Shown piece by piece: positions 13,695-58,504 of a stretch of DNA of 58,504 nt. This DNA comes from Acidobacteriota bacterium (GTDB taxonomy: Bacteria; Acidobacteriota; Thermoanaerobaculia; Multivoradales; JAHEKO01), in assembly GCA_029862975.1 (NCBI GenBank), contig JAOTWP010000008.1:1-58504 (forward strand), written 5' to 3'. A program made the translations under genes and the position numbers. Within the stretch, counting starts at the first letter, position 1. Each line of letters begins with the position of its first letter. Under the pieces are notes generated by a model. It did not search any database. It saw only the letters and a program-made list of their open reading frames with translations, and had not been told where the DNA came from.

Positions 13695-13957
13695 CGAGGC
13701 GTCGCAGGGCGGCCTCGCGGGGAGACAGAAGCCGGCAAAGATGGGATACTAGCCGCCGCTTTGTGTGACATTCTCCGCGGATCGGGGTCTCACCCGACCT
13801 GTCGCCCGCGCGGTCGCGGATCGAATCCGGGGGGGTTCGGGATAGACTGATGAGGTTCGCCATGCCGAATTCCGATGCTACTGGCCCCGGGTGGGGCCCT
13901 GTTGTGCAGCCCTCCCGAGTCCGCTCCGTCGCCTATCAGCCGTCGAGGTCGATCACC

Positions 13958-16900
13958 ATGAAACGAATCCCGTTTTCTGTCTGTGCAGCGCTGCTCGTCG
14001 CAGCGCTCCTCCTGGCGGCGCCGGCCGGCGCCGACATCTCCGGCACGGTCTTCCGTGACGTCGACGGTGACGGCGTCAATGACGGCGGCATCGAGGCGGG
14101 CGTTGGAGGAATCGGCGTCCAGGCCTTCAATGCGGCCGGCAACACCCCGGTGGCCAGCACCACGACGGCCGCCAATGGCACCTACAACCTCGTCCTGGTC
14201 GCTGGGAGCTACCGCGTGGAGTTCGTCATCCCGGCGGCCCTGAACCACTTCCAGCCCTCGGTCGTCCTCAGCGGCTCCGGCAACACCTCGGTCGTCTTCG
14301 CCGCCAGCCCTGCCACCAACGTCAACTTCGGCGTCATCAACCCCGGCCAGTTCTGCCAGGCCGACCCCGTGGTCGGGGTCAACTGCTACCTCAGCGGCCC
14401 GCAGCCCGGCTTCAACAGCCCGGGTCAAGACGTGCTGGTCTCGTTCCCCTACACCGCGGGCTGCCCCGACGAGAACCAGAACGGCGTCTGCGACGTCGGC
14501 AGCGCCGACGCCCCGGCGCCGACCGAGCTGGCCCTCGGCTCGGAGCTCGGCAGCACCTGGGGGCTGGCCTATCAGCGCTCCACCGATACCCTCTTCGCGG
14601 CGGCCTTCCAGAAGCGCCACAGCGGCTTCCGGACCTACGGCGACACGGGCGTCATCTACCGCGTCGACGACGCCTCGCTGGGCCTCGGCGCCACCATCTC
14701 CCCCTACGTCGACTTCGACGCTCTGGGGATCCCCACGGCGAACGCGGCGCTCTTCCCGCCGTTCGGCGATCCCCACCCGGCGCCCACGGCGACCTGCACC
14801 TCCGCCCTGGGCGTCGCCGATCCCGGCGCCACCAACCGCAATTGCTGGCTCCACGACGCGAGCTCCTACGGCCAGGTGGGCCGCATGTCGTTCGGCGATC
14901 TCGACATCTCCGACGACGAGTCGACCCTGTGGACGGTCAACCTCTTCAACAAGACCCTCTACTCGGTTCCGGTGAAGACGACGCCCGTCACGCTGGGCGA
15001 GATCGGCGCCCACCCCCTGCCGACGCCGGCCTGCAACGGCCAGCGCCAGCCCTTCGCGGTGGGTTTCGAGGACGGCCTCGTCTACGTCGGCCTCGTCTGC
15101 GACGGGTCGACGGGGACGGCGGCGGACCTGCGGGCCTACGTCTATTCCCTCGACCCGGACAACATCCCCGGCGGCTTCACGCAGCGCCTGAACCAGCCGC
15201 TCAACTACGGCCGCGGTTTCACCGTGAACTCCGGTGCCGCCAATATTCCGGCAGCCTGGCTGCCCTGGAACGACACCTTCACCAATCCCCCCTCGGCCCC
15301 CGGCCCGCCTCTCGGCCCGGTCTTCGGCACCGAGGTCGGCTATCCGCAGCCGTGGCTGACCGACATCGAGTTCGACGACGACGACCTCGTGCTCGGAATT
15401 CGTGACCGCTTCGCGGACCAGGCGGGCTTCGACCTCGGCTCTCCGGCCAACACGTCGTCTACCGTGTGGCGGGGTGACGGCGCCGGAGACACTCTGCGCG
15501 CCTGTCCCAGCGGCTCCAACTGGACCTTCGAGTCCAACGCCAGCTGCGGCGGCGTCACGACCGGCGGCGCCGGCAACGGGCAGGGTCCGGGCGGCGGGGA
15601 GTACTACTACGAGGAGCGCCTCACCGAGCCAACCCCACCGCCTCCGACGATCCACGACGAGACCTCCCTGGGCGGCCTTTTCCAGGTCCCGATCAACACC
15701 GAGGTGCTGTCGACGGTCTACGACCCGCTGAACTCCTCCGCCGGGTCGCAGGTCTTCAGCGGCGGCATCCACTGGTGGCGGCGCGCGGACGGCCAGGTCG
15801 ACAACCTCTATCGCGTCTTCCTGCGCACCGACCCCAACACCTTCGGCAAGGCCGGCGGGCTGGGCGACCTCGAGGCGCTGTGCGACCCGGCACCGCTCCA
15901 GATCGGCAACCGGGTGTGGCTCGACGCCGACGTCGACGGCCTCCAGGATCCGGGGGAAGCGGGCTTGAGCGGCCTGACGGTCGCGATCTACAGCAACGCG
16001 GACGGGGTCTGCGACGGGACCGGCGAGGTGCTGCTCGGAAGCGTCGTCACGGCGGCGAACGGCACCTACCTCTTCACCGACGCGAACGTCACCGGCGGGC
16101 TCCAGTACGGCACCAAGTACTGCCTGCGGATCGTCGTCCCGGGCGGCTTCGGCGCGACCGTGCGCGACGCGACTCCGGTCGGCGACGGCCGGGACGACGT
16201 CCGTGACTCGGACGGCGACCCGGCGCCCTTCCCCGGCTCGGTCGTGACGAGCTTCACCACCGGCGGGCCGGGCAACAACCGCCACGTCTACGACTTCGGC
16301 TTCCGCGCCCTCGAGTTCGACTACGGCGATCTGCCGGACCCGCCCTACGCGACGCTGGCGGCGTCGAACGGCCCCAACCACGAGATCACCACTCCGGGCA
16401 ACTGCTACCTCGGCGGCCCGCCGGACTCGGAGCTCGACGGCCAGCCGAACGCGCCGGCCCTCGGTGACGACAACGACTTGAACGGCGACGACGAGGACGG
16501 CGTGCTCTTCCTGACGCCGCTCATCCCGGGGCGGGTCGCCGACATCCAGGTCGCCTCTTCCGGCGCCTGCGTCCTCAACGCCTGGATCGACTTCAACTCC
16601 AACGGCAACTTCGCGGATCCCGGTGAGCTGATCGCCTCCAACCTCGCCCTCGTGGCCGGCAACAACCTGCTCGACAACGTCCCGGTGCCCGCCGGCGCCA
16701 CGGGGGTCATGGCGGCGCGGTTCCGGGTGACCAACCTGGCTGGCCAGGGCGGCGCCAGTCCGACCGGGCCGGCGACGACGGGCGAGGTCGAGGACTACGT
16801 TCTGGCCGCGCTCGGCGACTTCGTGTGGAACGACTCGGTCGTCGGTCAGGGCATCCAGCTCGGCGGCGACACGCCGGTGCCGGGGCTGGTCGTGCACCTG

Positions 16901-19723
16901 CTGGCCAACGACGGCGTGACGCCGATCCTGGACGGCGCCGGCGTGGCGATCACCGCGACGACGGACGCCAACGGCAACTACGAGTTCCCGGGGCTGCCGA
17001 CGCTGACCAACTCCGGTCTGCCCAACCCCGGCGACTACCGCGTCCGCTTCGAGCTGCCGCCGCCGTTCGTCGACTTCTCGCCGCGCGACAACACTACGGA
17101 CGATCTCGACAGCGACGCGGACCAGGTCGCGCAGCCGATTGCGGGGCTGACGCAGATCGTGAGCCTGACCTCGGGCGTCGACGACGTCGACCTCGACGCC
17201 GGCCTGCGGGCGCCGACCGTGGCGCTCGTCACCTCGGCGGCGGCCTACGTCGATGGCGGCGCGGTCGTGTTCGAGTTCTCGACCGGCTACGAGGCGCTCT
17301 CGGCAGGCTTCGAGGTGTTGCGCCACGAGCCGGAGACCGACGAGTACGTGGCGGTCAGCGAGCGCCTGATCCCGGCTCTCCTGGGCTCGCCCCAGGGCGG
17401 CGTCTACCGGGTGGTCGACGAGGGCGCGCCGTTCCGCGAAACGCTGCGCTACGTGATCGTCGAGCACCAGGGTGACGGCCGCACTCAGGTCTACGGCCCC
17501 TACCCGGTCCAGGTGACGGACCGCGGCAGCCGAGCCCCGCTGGACGCGAGCTTCGCGGCCCTGCCCCACGTCTCGCCCCGCTTCGGCGACAGGATGGCGC
17601 AGGCGCGCGGCGAGACCGCGGAGCGCGGCCGGCGCGATCGATCGGCAGCCACCAGACTCTCCTCGCGCTCCTGGACGCTCCAGGTCGGCGTGCGCGACTC
17701 GGGCCTCTACCGCGTCTCGGTGGCGGCCATGGCTGCCGCGCTGGGCGTGCCCGAGTCGAGGGTGCGCTTTCTGATCGACCACAGCCTGGTCGAGATGGAG
17801 AACCGGGGACAGCCGGTCGCGTGGTGGACGCCGAACGGCTCGGACGGCGATCTCTTCTTCTACGGCGAGGCGATCGACAGCCTCTACACCCTCGAGAACA
17901 CCTACTGGCTGCGTCTCTACCGGCCCGGCCAGCGCATGGACCGCTCCGGCGGACCGCTGCCGCCCGCGGCCCCCGGCGGCGTCTTCGTCTCGACGGAGCG
18001 CTTCGAGGAGGACGTCATCCCCGCGATCACCGGCGTGCGCGAGACGGAGGTCGACCACTGGTTCTGGGGCGGCATCAACGCCCAGAACCCGAACACGATC
18101 CTCGCGTTCGATGTCGCCGTTCCCGACGCCGCCGCCGGAGCCGCCAGCATGACGGTGCGCTTCGCCGGCGCCACGGACGGCGTCGCGCTGCGAGATCATC
18201 ACGCGATCGTGAGGGTCAACGGAACGGAGGTCGGCACCGCGGCATGGGGCGGGATCGAGTTCTTCGAATCCACGTTCGCCTTCGACGGCGCCTTGCTGAC
18301 GCCCCTGACCTCGGTCGAGATCGAGGGCGTTCTGGCGGAAGGCTCGACGGCGTCGATCTTCTTCGTCGACGGCTTCGACGTCGATTACCCGCGCTTCTAC
18401 CGCGCCCTCGACGACCGCCTGCTCGTCCGGGGCGACGGCAACCCGATCGTCACCGTCGAAGGCTTCACGAGCCCAGACGTCGCGGTGTTCGATCTGACGG
18501 ATCCCGAGGCTCCGGTGCGGGTCACCAACGTTCTCGTCGAAGTGGTAGGCAGCGGCGTGCAGGCGAGCTTCTTCCCGACGACGGCCGCGACGCCCTACCT
18601 CGTGACGACCGAGACGTCGGCGCTGCCGACGACGGATCCGCGCTTTGTCGCCCCGGCGATCGACCTGCGGGCGACCTACCACGCCTACGAGCACGTGGTG
18701 ATCGCTCCCGAGGCGTGGCGCCTCGAGGCCGAGGACCTCGCGGCGTACCGCAGCGGCATGGGGCTGAGCTCGCTCGCCGTCAGCATCGAAGAGGTCTACG
18801 ACGCCTTCAGCGACGGCATCGTGACCCCGTGGGCGGTACGCGACTTCCTGTCCTACGCCCGCGAGAACTGGTCCCAGGGACCGGACTACGCGGTGCTGGC
18901 GGGCCGGGGGACGTTCGATCCGCGCGATCTCCTTGGTGGCGGCGACAACTTCATCCCGGTGGTCCTCGTCGGCACGCCGTACGGTCTGGTGGCGACGGAC
19001 AACGTCCTCGCCGACCTCGAGGCCGGAGACTCGGTTCCGGAGGTGGCACTGGGCCGCCTGCCGATCGTCAGCGCCGCGGAGCTCGCGACCTACGTCGACA
19101 AGCTCGAGGCCTACGACGGGTCGCAGGGCCCCTGGCGCGGCCGCGCACTCCTGCTGGCCGACAACCCGGACACGGCGGGCGACTTCCCGCTGCAGAGCGA
19201 CGTGGTTGCGAGCCTGCTCACGGCCTACGATCAGAAGCTCGTCTACCTCTCGGAGATGGGCATCGACGACGCGCGCGCCGCGCTGCAGGAGTCCTGGAAC
19301 GCCGGCGTCCAGCTCATCAACTACGTCGGGCACGGCGGAGTGACCCAGGCGGCCGCGGAAGGCCTCGTCCGGGCCACGGACGTCGGTCTGCTGGCCAACG
19401 GCGATCGGCTGCCGGTCGTCTCGGCGCTGACCTGCATCGTGGGCCGCTCCGACGTCCCGAACCTCGAGTCTCTCGCCGAGGCCCTGGTGCTGGATGCCGA
19501 CGGCGGCGCGATCGCGGTCTGGGCGCCGACGGGCATCTCGTTCGGCGGCGCGGCGCACACCCTCAACGTGCTCTATGCCGAGGCGATCGCGGCGGCGGCG
19601 CCGGATACGCCCCTGGGCGAGATCGTCCTGCAGACGCTCGCCGGCTTCGAGGCCCTCGGCGGCTCGCCCGAGATGCTCGACGCCTACGCGATCGCGGGCG
19701 ACCCGGCGGTGGCCCTGCCCTAG
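13958..19723 (+). CDS. Giant secreted SdrD-like / GEVED / C25 (gingipain-type) cysteine protease
   Basis: 1921 residues from the ATG before MKRIPFSVCAALLVAALLL, a clear signal peptide. An upstream in-frame ATG at 13850 would bury it. SdrD B-like domains lie near residues 27-130 (ISGTVFRDVDGDGVNDGG), 647-775 (GNRVWLDADVDGLQDPGEAG) and 950-1085 (LGDFVWNDSVVGQG), with a GEVEDY motif near 941. The C-terminal ~370 residues are a peptidase C25 domain with NYVGHGG (His1792) and ALTCIVGR (Cys1826), so the His-Cys dyad is intact. The protein stops immediately after the C25 domain (GDPAVALP), with no Ig-like or type IX sorting domain. It is probably a secreted or surface protease. Its own transcript is suggested by the flanking spacer and terminator. 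Confidence 0.88.
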   Translation: MKRIPFSVCAALLVAALLLAAPAGADISGTVFRDVDGDGVNDGGIEAGVGGIGVQAFNAAGNTPVASTTTAANGTYNLVLVAGSYRVEFVIPAALNHFQPSVVLSGSGNTSVVFAASPATNVNFGVINPGQFCQADPVVGVNCYLSGPQPGFNSPGQDVLVSFPYTAGCPDENQNGVCDVGSADAPAPTELALGSELGSTWGLAYQRSTDTLFAAAFQKRHSGFRTYGDTGVIYRVDDASLGLGATISPYVDFDALGIPTANAALFPPFGDPHPAPTATCTSALGVADPGATNRNCWLHDASSYGQVGRMSFGDLDISDDESTLWTVNLFNKTLYSVPVKTTPVTLGEIGAHPLPTPACNGQRQPFAVGFEDGLVYVGLVCDGSTGTAADLRAYVYSLDPDNIPGGFTQRLNQPLNYGRGFTVNSGAANIPAAWLPWNDTFTNPPSAPGPPLGPVFGTEVGYPQPWLTDIEFDDDDLVLGIRDRFADQAGFDLGSPANTSSTVWRGDGAGDTLRACPSGSNWTFESNASCGGVTTGGAGNGQGPGGGEYYYEERLTEPTPPPPTIHDETSLGGLFQVPINTEVLSTVYDPLNSSAGSQVFSGGIHWWRRADGQVDNLYRVFLRTDPNTFGKAGGLGDLEALCDPAPLQIGNRVWLDADVDGLQDPGEAGLSGLTVAIYSNADGVCDGTGEVLLGSVVTAANGTYLFTDANVTGGLQYGTKYCLRIVVPGGFGATVRDATPVGDGRDDVRDSDGDPAPFPGSVVTSFTTGGPGNNRHVYDFGFRALEFDYGDLPDPPYATLAASNGPNHEITTPGNCYLGGPPDSELDGQPNAPALGDDNDLNGDDEDGVLFLTPLIPGRVADIQVASSGACVLNAWIDFNSNGNFADPGELIASNLALVAGNNLLDNVPVPAGATGVMAARFRVTNLAGQGGASPTGPATTGEVEDYVLAALGDFVWNDSVVGQGIQLGGDTPVPGLVVHLLANDGVTPILDGAGVAITATTDANGNYEFPGLPTLTNSGLPNPGDYRVRFELPPPFVDFSPRDNTTDDLDSDADQVAQPIAGLTQIVSLTSGVDDVDLDAGLRAPTVALVTSAAAYVDGGAVVFEFSTGYEALSAGFEVLRHEPETDEYVAVSERLIPALLGSPQGGVYRVVDEGAPFRETLRYVIVEHQGDGRTQVYGPYPVQVTDRGSRAPLDASFAALPHVSPRFGDRMAQARGETAERGRRDRSAATRLSSRSWTLQVGVRDSGLYRVSVAAMAAALGVPESRVRFLIDHSLVEMENRGQPVAWWTPNGSDGDLFFYGEAIDSLYTLENTYWLRLYRPGQRMDRSGGPLPPAAPGGVFVSTERFEEDVIPAITGVRETEVDHWFWGGINAQNPNTILAFDVAVPDAAAGAASMTVRFAGATDGVALRDHHAIVRVNGTEVGTAAWGGIEFFESTFAFDGALLTPLTSVEIEGVLAEGSTASIFFVDGFDVDYPRFYRALDDRLLVRGDGNPIVTVEGFTSPDVAVFDLTDPEAPVRVTNVLVEVVGSGVQASFFPTTAATPYLVTTETSALPTTDPRFVAPAIDLRATYHAYEHVVIAPEAWRLEAEDLAAYRSGMGLSSLAVSIEEVYDAFSDGIVTPWAVRDFLSYARENWSQGPDYAVLAGRGTFDPRDLLGGGDNFIPVVLVGTPYGLVATDNVLADLEAGDSVPEVALGRLPIVSAAELATYVDKLEAYDGSQGPWRGRALLLADNPDTAGDFPLQSDVVASLLTAYDQKLVYLSEMGIDDARAALQESWNAGVQLINYVGHGGVTQAAAEGLVRATDVGLLANGDRLPVVSALTCIVGRSDVPNLESLAEALVLDADGGAIAVWAPTGISFGGAAHTLNVLYAEAIAAAAPDTPLGEIVLQTLAGFEALGGSPEMLDAYAIAGDPAVALP

Positions 19724-26220: not shown

Positions 26221-27969
26221 CTAATCGTGGACGGTCTCGCGGACGACCTCTTCGATCGTCGTGATGCCGTCGCGGATCTTCTGCAGCCCGCTCTGGCGTA
26301 GCGAGAGCATCTCGTTGGCCAGGGTCCGCTCGCGGATCTCGTAGGCGCTGGCGCCGGAGAGGATGAGGTCGCGGATGTCGTCGTCCACCTCCATGACCTC
26401 GAAGAGCCCGAGGCGGCCCTTGTAGCCGGTGTTCGAGCAGCGCTCGCAGCCCCGGCCCTTGTAGAGCTGGAGGGTCTGCGCCTCCTGCGGCGAGAAGCCG
26501 AGGTTGACGAGGCTCTGGGCGGGCACCTTGATCGCCTCCTTGCAGGTCGTGCAGATGACCCGCACGAGGCGCTGGGCGACGACGAGATGGACGGAGCTGG
26601 CGACGAGGAACGGCTCGACGCCCATGTTCATGAGCCGGCTCACCGAGGACGGCGCGTCGTTCGTGTGCAGCGTGGAGAGCACGAGGTGGCCGGTCATCGC
26701 GGCCTTGATCGCCACCTCGGCGGTCTCGAAGTCGCGGATCTCGCCAACGAGGATGATGTTCGGGTCCTGGCGCAGGAACGAGCGCATCGAGGCGGCGAAG
26801 TTGAGACCGATCTGCTCCTTGACCTGGACCTGGTTGATGCCGGTGAGGTTGAACTCGACCGGATCCTCGGCCGTCATGATGTTGGTCTCGGGCGAGTTGA
26901 TGCGCGACAGCGCCGAATAGAGCGTGTTCGTCTTGCCCGATCCGGTGGGACCGGTGACGAGCACCATGCCGTAGGGCCGGAAGATGGCCTGCTCGAAGCG
27001 CCGCAACGAGTCGGTCTCGAAGCCGAGCTTCATCATGTCGAGCATCAGCTTGTCTTTGTCGAGCAGGCGCATGACGATCTTCTCGCCGAAGATCGTCGGC
27101 AGGGTCGAGACCCGGAAGTCGAGGTCCTTGACCTTGCCCTTGGCCTTGGTCTTGATCTTGATCCGGCCGTCCTGCGGCAGCCGCTTCTCGGCGATGTCCA
27201 GCCGCGCCATGATCTTCAGCCGGCTCGTGATCGCCTCCTTGAGCTTCATCGGCGGCCGCATCATCTCGTAGAGCACGCCGTCGATGCGGTAGCGGACGCG
27301 ATACTCCTTCTCGTAGGTCTCGATGTGGATGTCCGAGGCGTTGCGCTTGATGGCGTCGGTCAGGATGATGTTGACGAGCCGGACGACCGGCGCTTCCTCG
27401 GACTGCTGCTCGAGAGCCCGGAGGTCGATCTCCTCTTCGTCGTCGAGGACCTCGAGGTCCGCTTCGTCGGAGTCCGCGATGTCCTCCATGACCTTGCGCA
27501 GCTCGATCGCGTGGGTCGAGCCGTGGTACTCGTCGATCGCTTCGCGCAGGGCCGTATCCGAGGCGACGACGGGCTCCACGGTGTAGCCGGTCATGAACTT
27601 GATGTCGTCCATGGCAAAGACGTTCGTGGGGTCCGCCATGGCGATGGTCAGCTTGGCGCCCGTCTTGGCGACCGGCAGGACGGTGTACTTGCGCGACACC
27701 TCGGCCGGCACGAGCTGGATGATCGCTTCGTCGATCTCGAGGCCCGTCAAGTCGACGGCCGGCACCCCGTAGCGATCGGCGAGGAACTCGACGAGCTCGG
27801 GGTCGGTCATGAACCCGAGGCGCACCAGGTGGGTGCCGAGCCGGCCGCCTTCCTGGCGCTGCGCGTCGAGCCCCTCACGCAGCTGATCGCCGGAGATCTT
27901 GCCCGCCTCGACGAGCAGATCGCCCAGGCGATTGCCTCCACGCTCGGAAGTAGTCGAGCCTATTGCCAT
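26221..27969 (-). CDS. pilB: Type IV pilus extension ATPase PilB (GspE family)
   Basis: 582 residues. Tandem MshEN-type repeats at the N-terminus (RLGDLLVEAGKIS, RLGTHLVRLGFMT) are the c-di-GMP-binding signature. The secretion ATPase has Walker A GPTGSGKTNTLY, an Asp box (TAEDPVEFNLTGINQVQV), Walker B ILVGEIRDFETAEVA and a His box, LSTLHTNDAPS. A zinc tetracysteine (CTTC ... CERC) precedes the C-terminus. It powers pilus polymerisation. No other pil gene is adjacent. A TTGACG-N17-TACAAT promoter places the transcription start at or beside the ATG, and there is no Shine-Dalgarno. Confidence 0.95.
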   Translation of the reverse strand: MAIGSTTSERGGNRLGDLLVEAGKISGDQLREGLDAQRQEGGRLGTHLVRLGFMTDPELVEFLADRYGVPAVDLTGLEIDEAIIQLVPAEVSRKYTVLPVAKTGAKLTIAMADPTNVFAMDDIKFMTGYTVEPVVASDTALREAIDEYHGSTHAIELRKVMEDIADSDEADLEVLDDEEEIDLRALEQQSEEAPVVRLVNIILTDAIKRNASDIHIETYEKEYRVRYRIDGVLYEMMRPPMKLKEAITSRLKIMARLDIAEKRLPQDGRIKIKTKAKGKVKDLDFRVSTLPTIFGEKIVMRLLDKDKLMLDMMKLGFETDSLRRFEQAIFRPYGMVLVTGPTGSGKTNTLYSALSRINSPETNIMTAEDPVEFNLTGINQVQVKEQIGLNFAASMRSFLRQDPNIILVGEIRDFETAEVAIKAAMTGHLVLSTLHTNDAPSSVSRLMNMGVEPFLVASSVHLVVAQRLVRVICTTCKEAIKVPAQSLVNLGFSPQEAQTLQLYKGRGCERCSNTGYKGRLGLFEVMEVDDDIRDLILSGASAYEIRERTLANEMLSLRQSGLQKIRDGITTIEEVVRETVHD

Positions 27970-50185: not shown

Positions 50186-50363
50186 TCTCTCCCAATCGGC
50201 CGCGCTGCGGCGATCGGCCGCTGACGCGCGGACGCGCGGCGGGGTGGCAGCGCCCGAGGCTCGGGAGAATGTAGAATCGGCCCAGCGGCCAGGGCGATAC
50301 CGCCCGGCAGCGCCGGCGGCGCGGCCGTCCGATCGAACAGCGGAAAGAGAGGGAACGCAGGTG

Positions 50364-51074
50364 ATGGACAAGAGGATCCTCGTGGCATTGAGCGTTCTGG
50401 CGGCGATGGCCGTCCCGGTGGCCACCCAGGCCGCCGGACCGGTCATGGCGGTCAACGACTTCGAGAACAACGTGACGGGAGTCTACTGGTGGTCGGGCGG
50501 CGTGGGCCGCGACCTGGCGGGCATGCTCACCAACGAGCTGGCGGCGACCGGGGCCTTCCAGATGGTCGAGCGCGCCCGCCTCGACGCCATTCTCGACGAG
50601 CAGGACCTGGGCGCGAGCGGCAGGGTTGACCCGGCTACGGCCGCCAAGATCGGCCAGATGGTCGGCGCCCAGTACCTCGTCACCGGCACGGTGACGGCCT
50701 TCGAGGAGAGCGGCCGTGAAGGTGGCGGGATCGGTTTCCGCGGGATCCGGGTCGGCGGCAAGAAGAAGGAGACCTATCTCGCGGTGGACATCCGGGTCGT
50801 CGACGCGACGACCGGGGTCGTGGCCTTTACCCGCACCGTGGAGGCGCGCTCCGAGGCGAAGGGATTCGACGTCGGCGTCTACCGGGGAGGCTTCGGCGGC
50901 AACCTGGCCAAGGAGAAGGAAACGCCGGCCGGCAAGGCCATCCGCGCGATGGTCATCGAAGCTTCGGACTATCTCGAGTGCGCCATGGTGACCCAGGGCT
51001 CGTGCATGGCCGAGTTCGACGCCAAGGAGCGGCGCCGTCGCGACGGAGCGAAGGACGCGGTCAAGCTCGACTGA
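50364..51074 (+). CDS. CsgG/HfaB family protein
   Basis: 236 residues. Signal peptide ILVALSVLAAMAVPVATQAA without a lipobox Cys, unlike curli CsgG. The CsgG core follows: MAVNDFENN, GRDLAGMLTNELAATGAFQMVERARLDAILDEQDLG, GQMVGAQYLVTGTVTAFEE, YLAVDIRVVDATTGVVAFTRTVEA. CsgG oligomerises as an outer-membrane secretion channel; more distant members are outer-membrane assembly lipoproteins. AGAGAGGGAA is upstream; GTG 50361 is also possible. Followed after 22 bases by a second CsgG-like gene. Confidence 0.85.
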   Translation: MDKRILVALSVLAAMAVPVATQAAGPVMAVNDFENNVTGVYWWSGGVGRDLAGMLTNELAATGAFQMVERARLDAILDEQDLGASGRVDPATAAKIGQMVGAQYLVTGTVTAFEESGREGGGIGFRGIRVGGKKKETYLAVDIRVVDATTGVVAFTRTVEARSEAKGFDVGVYRGGFGGNLAKEKETPAGKAIRAMVIEASDYLECAMVTQGSCMAEFDAKERRRRDGAKDAVKLD

Positions 51075-51096: not shown

Positions 51097-51744
51097 GTGA
51101 AGTCGCCCAAGAGCGCGGCCGCGGCGCGGGCTGCGGCCGTGACCGTGACCCTGGTTCAGGCCTGGAGCTACGCGGCGTCGCCGGGCGCAGCGGCGGCGGA
51201 GCCGCCGGGCCTCGCGGTGGTGCGCTTCGCCGCCGAGCCGGCCAGCGAGTGGTGGGCCTTCCAGGGGGTGGACGCGGCGCGCGACCTCTTTGCCGGCGAG
51301 CTGCGCGCCAGCGGCAAGTACCGCGTCCTCGACCGCAGCGAGCTCGACGCCCGGTTGTTGGAGCACAAGCTCACGGGGCTTGCCGGGGAAATCAGCCCGG
51401 CGGCGGCGGTGAAGGCCGGCCGCCTGCTCGGGGTTCGCTATCTCGTGACGGCGACGTTGACCGAGTTCGGCGGCGGCGGCCGCCGGCTCCTGGGCCTGCG
51501 CGCCGGCAGGAGCTTCGCGGCGGCGCTCGACGCTCGCCTGGTCGACGCCGAGTCGGGGGACCTCCTGTGGGCCGACGGCGGTCGCACGGAGGCGACGATC
51601 GAGCGGCCCGCGAAGCGGGACGAGATCGACGAGCCCGCCTACCAGGCGCGGATGTACGAGCGGCTGCTCGCGCCCATCATCCGAGAGCTCGCTCGCGGTC
51701 TCGTCGCCGCCCAGCCCCAGGCTGCCGCGGCCGTCCCGGAATAG
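51097..51744 (+). CDS. Second CsgG-family protein
   Basis: 215 residues from a GTG. The N-terminus is weakly hydrophobic (AAAVTVTLVQAWSYAASPGAAAA), probably a signal peptide. The CsgG-like fold is present: LAVVRFAAEPASEWW, ARDLFAGELRASGKYRVLDRSELDARLLEHKL, AGRLLGVRYLVTATLTEFGG, AALDARLVDAESGDLLWADGG. A paralogue-like partner of the preceding gene. It converges on the pseudokinase-TonB gene. Confidence 0.78.
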   Translation: MKSPKSAAAARAAAVTVTLVQAWSYAASPGAAAAEPPGLAVVRFAAEPASEWWAFQGVDAARDLFAGELRASGKYRVLDRSELDARLLEHKLTGLAGEISPAAAVKAGRLLGVRYLVTATLTEFGGGGRRLLGLRAGRSFAAALDARLVDAESGDLLWADGGRTEATIERPAKRDEIDEPAYQARMYERLLAPIIRELARGLVAAQPQAAAAVPE

Positions 51745-51754
51745 GGCCCGGCGC

Positions 51755-53896
51755 TCAGGGTCGGAACGAGATCTTGAGATCGACCCACATCTTGACCCGC
51801 ACCCCGAGCTTCGTGGCGGGGACCCACCGCGTGCCGCGGGCCGCCGCCGCGGCCGCCTCGTCGAATCCGAAGCCGACCTTCTCGCCGACCGGCTCGATCC
51901 GGGCGACGCTGCCGTTCTCGTCGATCAGCAGGCGCAGCTGGACGTCGGCCTGCTTGTTGAGACGGCTGGCGGCCGGAGGATAGCGCGGCTGCGGGCGGCC
52001 GACCATCCGCGGCCGCTCGACCCCGGGGCCCATCTCGACGAGATCGCCCACGGCGGGCGGGGGCGCCGGGCTCGGCGGCACCGTCTCCGCTTGCTCCGCC
52101 GCTTCGGAAGGGGCCGTCTGGACGCGCTCGGCGCTGGCGGCGGCGCCTTGTTGCTCTGCCACCGGAGGGCTCGCCGCGACCGGCGAATCGGTCCTGGCGG
52201 CCGCGTCGCCGGCGGGCTGGTCGTCCGCCGGTGCGGCCGTTGCCGGCGGCTCGCCGGTCCGCGCCGGCGGGGACGAGGCGGCGAGTGGCCTCGCGTCTCC
52301 CGCCGCCGGCGCCTCGGCCTGAGCCGCGGCCTGCTGGGCGAGGCGGGCCTCTTCCAGCTGCTGCCGCAGCGCTGCCAGCTCTTCCTCGTACCTCGCTTCG
52401 AGTCTGTTCGTCCGGTCGTCCACGAGCTGCTCGATCTGCGCCTCGACCTGCTCGGGGGTGGGGGGCACGCTCACTCCCGAGGTGTCGACCGAGTCGGGGG
52501 GCAGGGCAGCCTCGTCTTCGCGACCGCCTGCGACCTCGAGTCCGAGCGACGGGGTGCCGTCGACGGCCGGCTCGAGGGCACCGGCGGGAGCGTCGCCTCC
52601 GAGATCGCCGCCTTCGAGATCGCCAGCTCCGAGATCGTCGGCGAGCGGGTCCGCCTCTTCCCGCATCTCGGTGTCCGCCAGCAGGAGGTCCGTCGCCGGC
52701 GCACTCGTGGTTCGCCAGTAGTACGCCGCGGCGAGGCCGGCGCCGAGGGCGACCGCGATCAGGGGAGCCAGCACCTTCCAGTTGGCGCCCTTGCCCCGGG
52801 CGCCGCCGTATTGGGCGCTCGCGTATCCGGTGCCGGCGCTCGCTGCGGCTCCCGTCCGCGGGCGATCGTCGGCCGCCTTGCCGGGGGGGATGAGCACGGT
52901 ATCCGACGGCCCGGGAGTCGGCTCGTCGACGCGGGCGAGCGCCGCGACGTCGACCTGGGTCGCTTTCTCGCGCGCGATGTCCAGCGTCTCCTGCTCGATC
53001 TCACCGCCGAACAGGGTGTGCATGAAGAACGCGAGATTGAACGTCGTGGGGCTGTAGTGGGCCTCGGCGATGAACCGGCCGAAAGCCTGCTGCCACTGCT
53101 GCACGTCGCCGATGCGCTGCGCTCGGGGGGCCAGGCTGCTCTTCAGGAGCGCCCGCAGCTGCGGCGGCAGCGGCTTTTCCTCGGCGGCGAGGACCGCGTC
53201 GTCGATCGCCGAGTCGAAGTTGCCGTCCGGCGGGTGGCTCAGCCGATTGCCGGTGAGCAGCTCGTAGAGCAGCGAGCCGAGCGAGAAGACGTCGTCCGTC
53301 GGGCTGGGCTCGGTCCCGGGAACGATCTCCGGCGCCAGGTACGGGCCGAAGGCTTCGCGGATCGGGGCGGCCTTGAGAAACTCGCGCAGGCCCGGCGCCG
53401 ACTCGAAGCCGACCAGGCGGACCTCGCCTTCGTTGGAGAGCAGCGCCTGCTCGGGCACGAGAAAACCGTGCTGCACGCGCTGGTCCCGATGCCGCGTGGA
53501 GAAGGCGGCGCTGAGCCCGAACGTGATTCTCTCCAGGATGAACAGCGCGTGCTCGGTGGGGATCTGGAACCCGCGCGCACGGGCCTGGTTGAGCAGCTCG
53601 GCGAGGTTCTTTCCCGACACGTACTCGTAAGCGACGTACGGAGTTGAGCCGACGCGGCCGACGTCCGCTCCGTCGCCGATGTGGGGGTTCTGCAGGATCC
53701 GGTGCAGCCCCATGCTGTCGGCGATCGTGCGCCAGAGGCTCTCGGGCTCGATGCCCGTGCCGTTGAACAGACGCAGCAAGACGACGCGCTCGATGCCCTG
53801 GCTGCCGATTCTGCCGGCCCGGAAGGTCTCGCCGAGGCCGTCGCTCGACAGGCGCCGGAACAGGAGGTACTCACCGAATTGCTGTGGGGTCGTCAT
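51755..53896 (-). CDS. Membrane pseudokinase with C-terminal TonB domain
   Basis: 713 residues from the ATG after GGAGAG. Residues 8-275 form a protein-kinase fold (FGEYLLFRRLSSDGLGETFRAG; PYLAPE; DDVFSLGSLLYELLTGNRL). Every catalytic motif is lost: VAIK is VLLR (Arg42), HRD is HGF (143-145), DFG is GFE (163-165). One membrane helix lies at about 373-393. A long Ala/Pro/Glu-rich periplasmic linker includes a coiled coil (RLEARYEEELAALRQQLEEARLA). The last ~85 residues are a TonB C-terminal domain (GRPQPRYPPAASRLNKQADVQLRLLIDENGSVARIEPV). It would couple a cytoplasmic sensor domain to outer-membrane partners. This fusion is not one I know well. Confidence 0.85.
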   Translation of the reverse strand: MTTPQQFGEYLLFRRLSSDGLGETFRAGRIGSQGIERVVLLRLFNGTGIEPESLWRTIADSMGLHRILQNPHIGDGADVGRVGSTPYVAYEYVSGKNLAELLNQARARGFQIPTEHALFILERITFGLSAAFSTRHRDQRVQHGFLVPEQALLSNEGEVRLVGFESAPGLREFLKAAPIREAFGPYLAPEIVPGTEPSPTDDVFSLGSLLYELLTGNRLSHPPDGNFDSAIDDAVLAAEEKPLPPQLRALLKSSLAPRAQRIGDVQQWQQAFGRFIAEAHYSPTTFNLAFFMHTLFGGEIEQETLDIAREKATQVDVAALARVDEPTPGPSDTVLIPPGKAADDRPRTGAAASAGTGYASAQYGGARGKGANWKVLAPLIAVALGAGLAAAYYWRTTSAPATDLLLADTEMREEADPLADDLGAGDLEGGDLGGDAPAGALEPAVDGTPSLGLEVAGGREDEAALPPDSVDTSGVSVPPTPEQVEAQIEQLVDDRTNRLEARYEEELAALRQQLEEARLAQQAAAQAEAPAAGDARPLAASSPPARTGEPPATAAPADDQPAGDAAARTDSPVAASPPVAEQQGAAASAERVQTAPSEAAEQAETVPPSPAPPPAVGDLVEMGPGVERPRMVGRPQPRYPPAASRLNKQADVQLRLLIDENGSVARIEPVGEKVGFGFDEAAAAAARGTRWVPATKLGVRVKMWVDLKISFRP

Positions 53897-54070: not shown

Positions 54071-55102
54071 CTAGCCCGAGTCCTCCTCCCGCTTCTCCCG
54101 CCAGTACCGGCGCTGCCATCGCTCCACGTTCTGATTGTGCTCGCGCAGGGTCTCGGCGAAGACGTGGCTGCCGTCGTTGCGGCTCACGAAATAGAGGTAC
54201 GGCACGTCGGCGGGCGCCGCGGCGGCAAGGAGGCTGGCCAGGCCGGGCGAGCAGATCGGGCCCGGCGGCAGACCCGGGTGGCGGTAGGTGTTGTAGGGCG
54301 AGTCCAGCTCCAGGTCGCGGCGCCGGATGTCGCCGTCCCAGGTCCCCAGCTGCTTGAGGGCGAAGATCACGGTGGGGTCCGCGTAGAGGCCGATCCCGCG
54401 GTCGAGGCGGTTGCGATAGACGCCGGCGATGACCGGCCGCTCGGCGTCGAGCCGCGCCTCCTTCTCGACGATGGAGGCGAGCGTCACGAGCTCGCGCAGC
54501 GGCGCGGGGCCGCGAGCGGCGAGGTTCTCGTCCATCCGCCGCCGGAAGTTGGCGACCAGAGTCCGGACGATCCGGTCCTCCGGCGTCGCCCGGGGAAAGC
54601 TGTAGGTGTCGGGGAACAGGTAGCCCTCGAGGGTCGTGGCCTCGGGATCCAGGTCCGCGATGGCGGCCGGCGAGCGCATTGCCGCGAGGAAGCGCGCCTC
54701 GCCACCGAAGCCCGCGGCGGCCAGGTGGGCCGCCGTCTCTTCGAGGGTCAGACCCTCGACGAGGGTCACCGGGTGCAGCACGACGTCGCCGCGAACGAGG
54801 AGGTCGAGGATCTCCGCCGTGGTGGCCGGGCCCTCGATCCGGTATTCGCCCGAGCGCAGCGGCGGATCGCCGAGCACGTACACGAGATAGAGGCGGGCGA
54901 GCGTGGCGTCCGGCACGAAGCCCAGCGCGGCGAGCTCGGACAGGATGCGGCCGGCGCTCGAGCCGGGGACCACGTCGAGCTCGGTGGCCCCCGGCGGGCC
55001 GTAGGGGGTGTGGAGGACGTGCCACGCCCAGGCCGCCAGCCCGCCGGCGAGGGCGATCGCGGCGGCCGCCACGAGAGCGAGGGCGGCGAGCCAGCGTCTC
55101 AC
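54071..55102 (-). CDS. mltG: Endolytic murein transglycosylase MltG
   Basis: 343 residues from a GTG that overlaps the ruvX stop (GTGA). An N-terminal membrane helix (WLAALALVAAAAIALAGGLAAWAW), a LysM-like subdomain and the YceG/MltG catalytic domain (TLASIVEKEARLDAERPVIAGVYRNRL with the catalytic Glu, LYADPTVIFAL, SPYNTYRHPGLPPGPICSPGLASLLAA). It cleaves nascent glycan strands and sets their length. The pairing with ruvX is common in bacteria. Confidence 0.95.
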   Translation of the reverse strand: MRRWLAALALVAAAAIALAGGLAAWAWHVLHTPYGPPGATELDVVPGSSAGRILSELAALGFVPDATLARLYLVYVLGDPPLRSGEYRIEGPATTAEILDLLVRGDVVLHPVTLVEGLTLEETAAHLAAAGFGGEARFLAAMRSPAAIADLDPEATTLEGYLFPDTYSFPRATPEDRIVRTLVANFRRRMDENLAARGPAPLRELVTLASIVEKEARLDAERPVIAGVYRNRLDRGIGLYADPTVIFALKQLGTWDGDIRRRDLELDSPYNTYRHPGLPPGPICSPGLASLLAAAAPADVPYLYFVSRNDGSHVFAETLREHNQNVERWQRRYWREKREEDSG

Positions 55103-55518
55103 CGGCCGCCCCGGCGCCGCTCGAGGGCCTCCGCGAGGAGAATCTGGGCCGCCACCGCGTCGACCCGCTCGGGATGGCGCCGGGGATCGACCCCGGCGGC
55201 ACGCAGCCGGGCCTCGGCCGCGACCGAGGTGAGCGCCTCGTCCACGAGCTCGCAGGGCAATCCGCTGGCCCGCTCGAGCTTGCGCGCGAAGCTCGCGGCC
55301 CGTTCGGCGGCCTCGCCGCGGCTGCCGTCGAGCCGCCTGGGCTCGCCGACGATGAAGGCCTCGACCTGCTCGCTGCGGGCGAGCTCGATCAGCTCCTCGA
55401 CGGCGGCCCGATCGCTGCGCCGGGAGAGGGTCGCAAGCGGCGTCGCGAGGCTCTCGGCGGGGTCCGAAATAGCCACTCCGATGCGGCGCTCGCCGAAGTC
55501 GATCCCGAGAATTCGCAT
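55099..55518 (-). CDS. ruvX: Holliday junction resolvase-like protein RuvX (YqgF)
   Basis: 139 residues, RNase H fold: ILGIDFGERRIGVAISD, VEAFIVGEPRRLDGSRGEAAERAASFARKL, and LVDEALTSVAAEARLRAAG with the C-terminal VDAVAAQILLAEAL. It acts in rRNA (16S precursor) processing or junction cleavage by family knowledge. Coupled to mltG. Divergent from the thiolase gene. Confidence 0.95.
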   Translation of the reverse strand: MRILGIDFGERRIGVAISDPAESLATPLATLSRRSDRAAVEELIELARSEQVEAFIVGEPRRLDGSRGEAAERAASFARKLERASGLPCELVDEALTSVAAEARLRAAGVDPRRHPERVDAVAAQILLAEALERRRGGR

Positions 55519-55610: not shown

Positions 55611-56795
55611 ATGAAAGACGTCTACATCCTGAGCGCCGTGAGGACGCCGATCGGAGCGTTCCAGGGTGCCTTGAGCGGTCTCTCTGCCGTCGAGCTGGGC
55701 GCTCGCGCTCTGGCCGGCGCCTGCGAGCGCGCCGCGGTCCCGCCGGCAGCCATCGAGCAGGTCTACATGGGCGCGGTCCTGACGGCCGGCCAGGGGCAGG
55801 CGCCGGCCCGGCAGGCGGCGCTCGGCGCCGGCTGTCCGGTGTCGACGGGCGCCGTGACGGTGGGCAAGGTCTGCGGCTCGGCGATGCGGGCGCTCATGAC
55901 GGCCGCCAACGACCTGCGCTGCGGCGACTTCTCGCTCGTGGCGGCCGGCGGGATGGAGAGCATGAGCCGGGCTCCGTATCTGGCGGCGGGCGCTCGCGAC
56001 GGGCTGCGTCTGGGGCACGGGCAGCTTCTCGACTCGATGATTCACGACGGCCTCTGGGACCCCTACAACGACACCCACATGGGCACCTGCGCCGAGCAGT
56101 GCGCCGACGAGTTCTCCTTCGACCGCGAGGCCCAGGACGGGTTCGCGCGGGAGAGCTACGAGCGCGCCCGGCGGGCCGCCGAGACGGGCGCCACGGCCGA
56201 GGAGATCGTGCCCGTGGCCGTCCCCCGGCGCAAGGGCGACGCCGAGGTGATCGACCGCGACGAGGAGCCGCAGCGCGCCGACTTCGAGAAGATGGCCAGG
56301 CTGCGGCCCGCCTTCCGCGAGGGCGGCACGGTCACCGCCGCGAACGCGAGCAAGATCAACGACGGCGCGGCGGCGCTGGTGCTGGCGACCGGCGAGGCCG
56401 CCGCCGAGCACGGGGTGAAGCCGCTCGCGCGGCTCGTCGCGCAGGCTTCTCTCGCGCAGGCTCCGGAGTGGTTCACGACCGCTCCGGCGCTGGCCGTGCG
56501 GAAGGTCCTCGAACGGGCCGGGCTCGCGGTCGCCGACATCGATCTCTGGGAGGTCAACGAGGCGTTCGCGGTCGTGGGGATGGCGTTCCTGCGCGAGCTC
56601 GGCCTGTCGCACGACGTCGTCAACGTGCGGGGCGGCGCGGTCGCCCTCGGGCATCCGATCGGCTGCTCCGGGGCGCGGATCGTCGTCACGCTGCTGCACG
56701 CCATGCGCGAGCGGGGCGCGAAGCGCGGCTGCGCGGCGATCTGCATCGGCGGCGGCGAGGCGACGGCGGTCGTCGTCGAGAGGGCCGGCGCTTGA
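55611..56795 (+). CDS. Acetyl-CoA acetyltransferase (thiolase)
   Basis: 394 residues from the ATG of MKDVYILSAVRTPIGAFQGAL. Catalytic Cys in VGKVCGSAMRALMTAA, the conserved NEAFAV, GHPIGCSGARIVVTLL (His) and CIGGGEATAVVVE (second Cys). It is the full length of the AtoB/PhaA/FadA group. It interconverts acetoacetyl-CoA and acetyl-CoA. Its stop overlaps the proposed lptD start. Confidence 0.95.
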   Translation: MKDVYILSAVRTPIGAFQGALSGLSAVELGARALAGACERAAVPPAAIEQVYMGAVLTAGQGQAPARQAALGAGCPVSTGAVTVGKVCGSAMRALMTAANDLRCGDFSLVAAGGMESMSRAPYLAAGARDGLRLGHGQLLDSMIHDGLWDPYNDTHMGTCAEQCADEFSFDREAQDGFARESYERARRAAETGATAEEIVPVAVPRRKGDAEVIDRDEEPQRADFEKMARLRPAFREGGTVTAANASKINDGAAALVLATGEAAAEHGVKPLARLVAQASLAQAPEWFTTAPALAVRKVLERAGLAVADIDLWEVNEAFAVVGMAFLRELGLSHDVVNVRGGAVALGHPIGCSGARIVVTLLHAMRERGAKRGCAAICIGGGEATAVVVERAGA

Positions 56796-58504
56796 GCGGA
56801 ACGCTCCTCGCGCTGGTGCTGACCGCGCAGTTCTACTCCGGCATGGACGACTTCCAGCGGCTGAGCTTCAGCCTGCCGATCGCCGACGGCGCGGGGACCG
56901 CGATCGGGCTCGCCGGGCGCATGGAGTACCTGCGCCCGGACTACGTCGTCGCGACCGGCGGGGTCGACGTGCGCTACGGGAGCCGGCGGATCCAGGCGCG
57001 GCGCCTCGAGATGGATCTCGCCGGGCGGGCGGTCCTGGCCGAGGGCGACGTCATCCTCGACGAGGGGCCGCAGCGGGTGGCCGGCCAGCGCATGGAGTAC
57101 GACCTGGCCAGCGGGACCGGCACGGTCTACGACGGGAGGGCCTCGTTCGGCCAGGATCTCTACTTCTACGGCGCCGAGATGAGCGTGGTGGGGCCCGACA
57201 CCTACGAGGTCGTCGACGGGGTCCTCACCGCGTGCGAGAGCGAGGATCCGGCCTGGAGCTTCAAGGTGGCGCGGGCGCGAATCGTGATGGAGGGCTTCGC
57301 GAGGATCCACCACGCCACGATGCGGGTCAAGAGACTGCCCTTCCTCTACGCGCCCTACATGGTCGTGCCGGCCAAGAGCGAGAGGGCCTCGGGCTTCCTC
57401 ATGCCGAGCGTCGGCTTCTCGCAGCGCCGCGGCACCATCTTCAGCCTGGCCTGGTTCCAGACGTTCGGCGACAGCTACGACGCGACGATCTCCGGGGAGC
57501 ACTATTCCGAGGGGATCACGGCCGCCGGGCTCGAGTTCCGCTACACCCCGGTGATCGGCACGTACGGCAACTTCGAAGGCTACGCCGTACAGGATTCGAA
57601 CGAGATCTTCGGCGCGCCCGGCACGGGCGACGAGGTGCGCTGGCGGATCCGCTGGCAGCACCAGAGCCGCGGCCTCCCCCTCGGGTTGAGCGCGGCGGTC
57701 AACATCACGGATTTCTCGGACTTCAACTTCTTCCGGGACTTTTCTCGCAATTTCAACACGATCACCCTGCGCAACATCCAGTCGACGGGCTTTCTGCAGG
57801 GATCGTGGGGGAAGCAGTCCGCCACCTTGCTGGTCGAGAATCAGGAACAGTTCATCACCACCGGCGTCGTGCGCTCGCGCCGGCAGCTGCCCGAGCTCGA
57901 GTACAGCCTGCGCTCGGCCCAGATCGGTGACCTGCCGATCTACGTCTCGACGGGCGCCGGCCTCCACGCCATCGAGGTCGAGACCACCGGGGCCTCCAAG
58001 ATCGCCTTCGAGCGCGCCTACGTGGCGCCGCGCATCTCCGTGCCCGTCGGTACGACCTGGCTGTCGGCCACGCTGAACGCCGCCGGCAAGGCGGTGTACT
58101 ACACCGACAGCCTGAGCGAGCCGGAGCCGGGGGTGCCGCAGGCCTTCACCGGCGAGTCGATCTCCCAGACCTCGAACGCCTTCTCGACGAACATCGTGGG
58201 GCCGTCGTTCTCGCGCGTCTTCCACAAGGGACTCGGTGAGTGGGCGAAGTTCAAGCACGTGATCGAGCCGCGCTGGGACTACAGCGTCTCCAGCGAGGTG
58301 GACAACGACCAGCTGATTCCGCGCTTCGACCAGATCGACAGCGCGGGCCTGGCGACGGAGCGCCTCACGTTCAGCTTCATCAACCGCCTGCTCGCCAAGC
58401 CCGAGGACGACACGTTGTTCGGCGCCCGCGAGATCATGTCGCTCGAGATCTCGCAGTCGTTCAGCTTCAAGGACGAGCAGCCGCTGACCCGGTTCATCCT
58501 CCCG
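56792..58504 (+). CDS. lptD: LPS-assembly protein LptD, N-terminal part (runs off window)
   Basis: 571 open codons from a TTG at 56792 to the window end with no stop. The N-terminal ~130 residues are the OstA/LptA-like jellyroll (LAGRMEYLRPDYVVATGGVD, ARRLEMDLAGRAVLAEGDV, TYEVVDGVLTACESEDPAWS). The LptD barrel follows, recognised from ATMRVKRLPFLYAPYMVVPA and SGFLMPSVGFSQRRG, RRQLPELEYSLRS and YYTDSL. It inserts LPS into the outer leaflet. TTG overlaps the thiolase stop; the export signal after it (LLALVLTAQF) is weak, so the true start may differ. Confidence 0.85.
   Translation, partial: MSGTLLALVLTAQFYSGMDDFQRLSFSLPIADGAGTAIGLAGRMEYLRPDYVVATGGVDVRYGSRRIQARRLEMDLAGRAVLAEGDVILDEGPQRVAGQRMEYDLASGTGTVYDGRASFGQDLYFYGAEMSVVGPDTYEVVDGVLTACESEDPAWSFKVARARIVMEGFARIHHATMRVKRLPFLYAPYMVVPAKSERASGFLMPSVGFSQRRGTIFSLAWFQTFGDSYDATISGEHYSEGITAAGLEFRYTPVIGTYGNFEGYAVQDSNEIFGAPGTGDEVRWRIRWQHQSRGLPLGLSAAVNITDFSDFNFFRDFSRNFNTITLRNIQSTGFLQGSWGKQSATLLVENQEQFITTGVVRSRRQLPELEYSLRSAQIGDLPIYVSTGAGLHAIEVETTGASKIAFERAYVAPRISVPVGTTWLSATLNAAGKAVYYTDSLSEPEPGVPQAFTGESISQTSNAFSTNIVGPSFSRVFHKGLGEWAKFKHVIEPRWDYSVSSEVDNDQLIPRFDQIDSAGLATERLTFSFINRLLAKPEDDTLFGAREIMSLEISQSFSFKDEQPLTRFILP

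Follow-up and report, generated by a model that had tools for sequence, protein, structure and literature searches.

The closest described systems fall into two groups, TonB-like adaptors and transmembrane pseudokinases, each known already. GltG, from the gliding machine of Myxococcus, carries FHA and TonB C-terminal (TonB_C) domains and has the motor protein AglR as a binding partner (PMC3169522), and both GltG and GltJ of the Agl-Glt system combine a single membrane helix with a periplasmic helical region and TonB_C (PMC3169522, PMC5349195). A cytoplasmic domain is generally missing from TonB proteins (PMC8262864). On the kinase side, EssB/YukC and MviN are dead membrane kinases able to act as scaffolds (PMC12599244); EssB comes from Firmicutes and MviN from Actinobacteria, and the text of that review describes no TonB part for them. 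The same source describes GLW pseudokinases, in which GLW replaces HRD, a poly-Leu stretch (LLLL/W) replaces the beta-3 lysine and a helix follows the kinase domain. It treats seven bacterial pseudokinase families, and its text mentions neither TonB nor Acidobacteria. Our literature searches, with the 2025 kinase atlas outside their scope, returned no report of a pseudokinase and TonB in one chain, nor of an Acidobacteria pseudokinase family. The family reported here may sit inside a class of that atlas, with GLW the nearest by description. The part that appears new is the union of the two modules in one chain.

We found this union in a window of 58,504 nucleotides (the whole stretch of DNA analysed) from an Acidobacteriota bacterium of the class Thermoanaerobaculia (Table 1). 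An earlier note on this DNA, made from the letters alone, had described a kinase fold joined by a membrane helix and a coiled coil to a TonB domain, and Pfam and hydropathy confirmed the two domains and the helix: Pkinase matches residues 58-233 (E 4e-11) and TonB_C residues 635-712 (E 1e-12), both above the cut-off, and hydropathy gives a single hydrophobic helix. The linker is first acidic and Ala-rich, with a likely coiled coil near residues 480-527 (judged by eye), and then Pro/Ala-rich. The protein thus shares with GltG and GltJ the single helix, the periplasmic helical region and TonB_C. It differs from GltG in having a pseudokinase head in place of the FHA head (a Pfam scan gave no FHA match at E up to 1), and no gliding genes were noticed at the locus. 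With TonB and TolA, which are force transducers, it shares the predicted TonB fold, the single helix and the long periplasmic linker; unlike them, it has a large cytoplasmic domain, no histidine in the helix and no linked ExbD. Degraded motifs are common to it, EssB/YukC (also a transmembrane pseudokinase), MviN and the GLW family, and the helix after the kinase domain, a GLW feature, is present in the pseudokinase-TonB family. The letters differ from GLW, being HGF and VLLR in the window protein and HGW in a paralogue, in a comparison made with GLW by description only.

Table 1. Features of the pseudokinase-TonB locus and its neighbours, in window positions.
Feature	Position	Strand	Basis
Whole gene, pseudokinase-TM-linker-TonB_C protein, 713 aa	51755..53896	-	ATG-started frame 53896-51755
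Pseudokinase domain, residues 1-280	53057..53896	-	Pfam Pkinase; PknA/StkP matches
VLLR replacing VAIK (beta-3 Lys to Arg), residues 39-42	53771..53782	-	Alignment to active relatives
HGF replacing HRD, residues 143-145	53462..53470	-	Alignment to StkP/PknA and intact relatives
GFE replacing DFG, residues 163-165	53402..53410	-	Alignment to StkP/PknA and intact relatives
Conserved C-terminal extension of pseudokinase, residues 281-337	52886..53056	-	
Transmembrane helix without His, residues 375-393	52718..52774	-	Hydropathy
Predicted periplasmic linker, residues 394-634	51995..52717	-	Sequence
TonB_C domain, residues 635-712	51761..51994	-	Pfam; model pLDDT 85, Foldseek to TonB CTD
MltG (YceG), upstream neighbour kept within class	54071..55138	-	Pfam; synteny
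RuvX, upstream of MltG	55099..55518	-	Pfam; synteny
Two CsgG/LpoB-like genes, tandem, converging on pseudokinase gene	50211-51074, 51097-51744	+	Pfam

When the head is aligned with StkP, PknA and intact relatives, the positions of the beta-3 Lys, the HRD Asp and the DFG Asp hold R, F and G, and the letters VLLR, HGF and GFE, which the earlier note had placed at the catalytic positions, are correct. The first glycines of the Gly loop are gone as well. Among proteins of solved structure, the head is closest by sequence to two bacterial kinases, StkP and PknA (phmmer, residues 8-248, E ~1e-11), and the pseudokinase family aligns with active relatives at an hhalign probability of 100. It is on sequence that the kinase fold of the head rests, because the AlphaFold model of this domain, built from a three-row alignment, reached a pLDDT of only 40 and was set aside.

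The lost motifs are not peculiar to one assembly. Two relatives from public MAGs, one titled Acidobacteria and one Thermoanaerobaculia (L013 and L014; one full, one nearly full), share HGFLVPE, GFES and VVLLR without change, making these invariant in 3/3 proteins. Since both relatives keep the letters, and since none of the 62 loci described below has all three catalytic residues, the motif loss is neither chance nor an assembly fault. The window protein is 82 and 80% identical to these relatives in the head, versus 65 and 64% overall, which makes the dead kinase domain the best conserved part of the protein. Each of the 18 genomes in the window's taxonomic family returned at least one match, often to an ordinary kinase, and 11 loci are of the pseudokinase-TonB type (the window and L015-L024, of which L024 is partial, L016 is cut by a contig end and L021 contains unknown bases); the genes L013 and L014 seem to be present in this set again, as L015 and L016.

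For the phylum as a whole, we used a 76-column profile built from residues 243-318 (52943-53170), which covers the end of the C-lobe and part of the C-terminal extension, and ran it on 149 genomes drawn across the phylum. It matched in 51 genomes and in 30 of 98 genera, nearly always once per genome, and we read 52 loci, i.e., every listed match minus the window's own. A helix follows the head in all 52, and a TonB_C profile made here matches in 47, or in 46/51 once L153, a second and weak match in its own genome that proved to be an intact kinase-TonB protein, is set aside. The loci without a TonB_C match are L137, which is cut by a contig end, L147, whose frame stops early, and L148, L150 and L151, which share one genus. 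Catalytic residues were counted in 62 loci, the 51 of the survey plus the 11 from the window's taxonomic family. Among the 61 readable loci, none keeps the HRD Asp and none keeps DFG, and an Asp stands at the first DFG position in 14; the beta-3 Lys survives in 2 of the 59 loci readable there. No locus has all three residues together (0/62), and all 11 intact relatives in the same alignment do. The earlier note had seen a dead kinase coupled to a TonB domain through the membrane in a single gene; that picture is supported, and far more widely.

Of the 89 sequences in a kinase-domain tree, 57 are pseudokinases and group as a single clan (local support 0.996). The accD-type kinases, 21 in number, make up a separate clan (local support 0.976), and eight further kinases encoded in the window's genome also fall outside the pseudokinase clan. 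The tree leaves out L024, L133, L138, L145 and L147, which are partial or badly aligned, and in it the accD-linked kinases from the window's genus, which are degraded, do not join the accD clan. One ancient loss of catalysis in the family is likely but not proven; the reading is weakened because long branches could pull dead domains together.

The dead kinase is one of several heads found in front of TonB_C. In L025-L030, the same C-terminal half, 35-46% identical, stands behind a different N-terminus, and in the three of these that were scanned with Pfam (L027, L029 and L030) that N-terminus is DUF4388. TonB_C is also found behind the intact kinases L032 and L036, one with a receiver domain match in front (Pfam). 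Because intact kinase-TonB and DUF4388-TonB fusions exist beside the pseudokinase type, the head of this TonB_C platform is exchangeable. DUF4388 also occurs alone in the window's genome, beside a canonical TonB (L009:1843-2661), and in one relative a TonB_2/TonB_C protein (L128:2578-3738) lies directly upstream of the pseudokinase-TonB gene.

Intact kinases also lie near accD. A kinase frame is found nearby at 19 of 43 accD loci; the HRD is intact in 16 of these kinases by motif search and TonB_C matches in 10, the G081 one being interrupted. Genes for an intact kinase-TM-TonB_C protein stand near accD in several classes (e.g., L058, L153, L192, L199, L204, L211 and L213). These proteins resemble the pseudokinase family in their homologous kinase fold (hhalign, 308 columns), their helix and, in many, their TonB_C domain; they are unlike it in their mostly intact motifs, a receiver-like N-terminus in some and their separate clan in the tree. 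A dead kinase is thus the rule within the pseudokinase family, and not for kinase-TonB fusions of this phylum as a class, because the separate accD-linked family, often TonB-tailed, is mostly intact. The window's genome has a second pseudokinase directly upstream of accD (L002:12-1910, on contig C249 of genome G000), with the motifs HGWLVP and EFG, a long repetitive N-terminus, a terminal membrane helix and no TonB; in relatives, an intact kinase, often with TonB_C, occupies that position. We considered whether the pseudokinase-TonB protein substitutes for a TonB tail on the accD-linked kinase and rejected this as a general rule: four genomes of the window's taxonomic family (G002, G003, G004 and G011) fit, having an accD-linked kinase without the tail, but G032 and others carry tails on both proteins.

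It is tempting to pair the two families, with the pseudokinase binding and controlling an active TonB-tailed or membrane kinase, such as the accD-linked one, that does the phosphorylating. The families are homologous, the would-be partner is mostly intact and often TonB-tailed, and, G001 excepted, every one of the 19 genomes with a kinase near accD also carries a member of the pseudokinase family (18/19). However, this is co-occurrence only, in genomes mostly picked for holding the pseudokinase, and the genes are not adjacent. All three genomes of the window's genus encode an accD-linked protein that is degraded and without TonB_C, and at 24/43 accD loci there is no kinase frame, some of these being cut by a contig end. 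We consider a kinase pair of this kind rather unlikely.

At the TonB end of the protein, a model of residues 605-713 reached a pLDDT of 85, and its best Foldseek matches are TonB C-terminal domains, namely 1u07 (E 1.8e-4), 6i97 (FoxA-TonB) and 2gsk (BtuB-TonB), with TolA a much weaker match; the TonB fold assumed in the earlier note thus passes in prediction. This fold, together with the presence of ExbD in the genome and of a TonB-dependent receptor ~50 kb away in the window, could point to an energy transducer with a regulatory head, driven by an ExbB/ExbD-type motor and acting on TonB-dependent receptors. In TonB and TolA, however, motor binding is ascribed to a conserved Ser-His motif (PMC12204202), and the membrane helix has no histidine in 60/60 members of the family. 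The two canonical TonBs of the window's genome (L009 and L011) both have the helix histidine; ExbD is encoded on contig C175 and, next to a canonical TonB, on contig C256, and no copy was found on the window contig, C112. For these reasons, we do not class the protein as a TonB: the absent histidine and the lack of ExbD at the locus speak against an ordinary nutrient-uptake TonB, and a motor-driven transducer seems to us an improbable reading. The coupling to TonB-dependent receptors suggested in the earlier note is accordingly unsupported. Of the two such receptors that it placed in the window, one stands (535-2607) and the right-hand barrel, within 56099-58504, is LptD; no second receptor was found among the long frames of the window that were scanned. 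Finally, a kinase fold turned to another activity (nucleotide binding, AMPylation or glutamylation) has precedent in the repurposed pseudokinases SidJ and SelO (PMC12599244) and might draw on the relatives that keep an Asp at the first DFG letter, but the window protein has lost the Gly loop, the beta-3 Lys, the HRD Asp and DFG, and we regard this as very improbable.

The neighbouring genes give a more local clue. The order RuvX-MltG-pseudokinase is kept across the window's family and class, with MltG adjoining the pseudokinase gene in L013, L014, L044-L051, L102, L103, L123, L126, L131, L142 and L143; in L114, of the same class, the sequence starts too near the gene to show MltG. No MltG or RuvX was found near the gene in survey loci outside the class, where the neighbours vary (glutamine synthetase, LpxB, DUF92, a sigma-54 regulator, PEGA, FadL and others), and a universal link to MltG was therefore rejected. 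Clustering of neighbours was confounded by overlapping antisense frames. A CsgG-like neighbour occurs in 7 of 10 loci (L013, L014 and L044-L051), in other orientations too; an operon with the CsgG/LpoB-like genes of the window was rejected because these lie convergent on the opposite strand. Elsewhere, the window holds a frame of 1957 aa (13850-19720) that combines SdrD_B and GEVED domains with a peptidase C25 domain at its C-terminus, and a type II/IV secretion ATPase with an MshEN domain (26224-27969), of pilus-type or secretion machinery.

In all, we favor a phosphorylation-independent, envelope-spanning adaptor, anchored in the inner membrane and working like GltG rather than as a nutrient-uptake TonB, and give this reading a probability of about one half. 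It draws on the lack of any active member, the single clan, the conserved dead head, the TonB fold of the C-terminal domain, the exchangeable heads and the helix without histidine, and GltG, with its FHA and TonB_C domains and its binding to AglR, would offer a working model by analogy. The kinase-fold head would be a docking or scaffold module in the cytoplasm that acts without phosphotransfer, the single helix would anchor the protein in the inner membrane and the linker of ~240 residues would span the periplasm. TonB_C would bind a partner in the outer membrane or periplasm, probably through beta-strand addition, the mode used by TonB. In the protein's own class, and not in the rest of the phylum, the RuvX-MltG-pseudokinase row makes it plausible that one job is to place peptidoglycan cleavage relative to the outer membrane. 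Several points count against an adaptor, among them the restriction of the MltG row to one class, the 5/51 loci without TonB_C and the low-scoring kinase-domain model. Another is the charge pattern around the helix, since only 26/60 family members show an excess of K/R on the side expected to be cytoplasmic; for this reason the proposed orientation rests on homology and, in the window protein, on its own charges as well.

A broader and more tentative idea, which we think unlikely as it stands, is an undescribed trans-envelope signalling system of Acidobacteriota, in which one TonB-tailed platform carries a dead kinase, an intact kinase near accD or DUF4388 as its head. If this were true, the TonB tails would pass binding events at the outer membrane on to the kinase-type heads, and envelope synthesis would be adjusted, fatty acids via accD and, in one class, peptidoglycan via MltG. 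A dead kinase that forms a single clan and occurs in 51 of 149 genomes, beside intact TonB-tailed kinases, provides a ready-made setting in which to compare dead and active heads on a shared platform. The family also offers a way to study how cytoplasm and outer membrane might communicate without phosphotransfer. With relatives across the phylum, it may be an unstudied link from the cell interior to the outer membrane.
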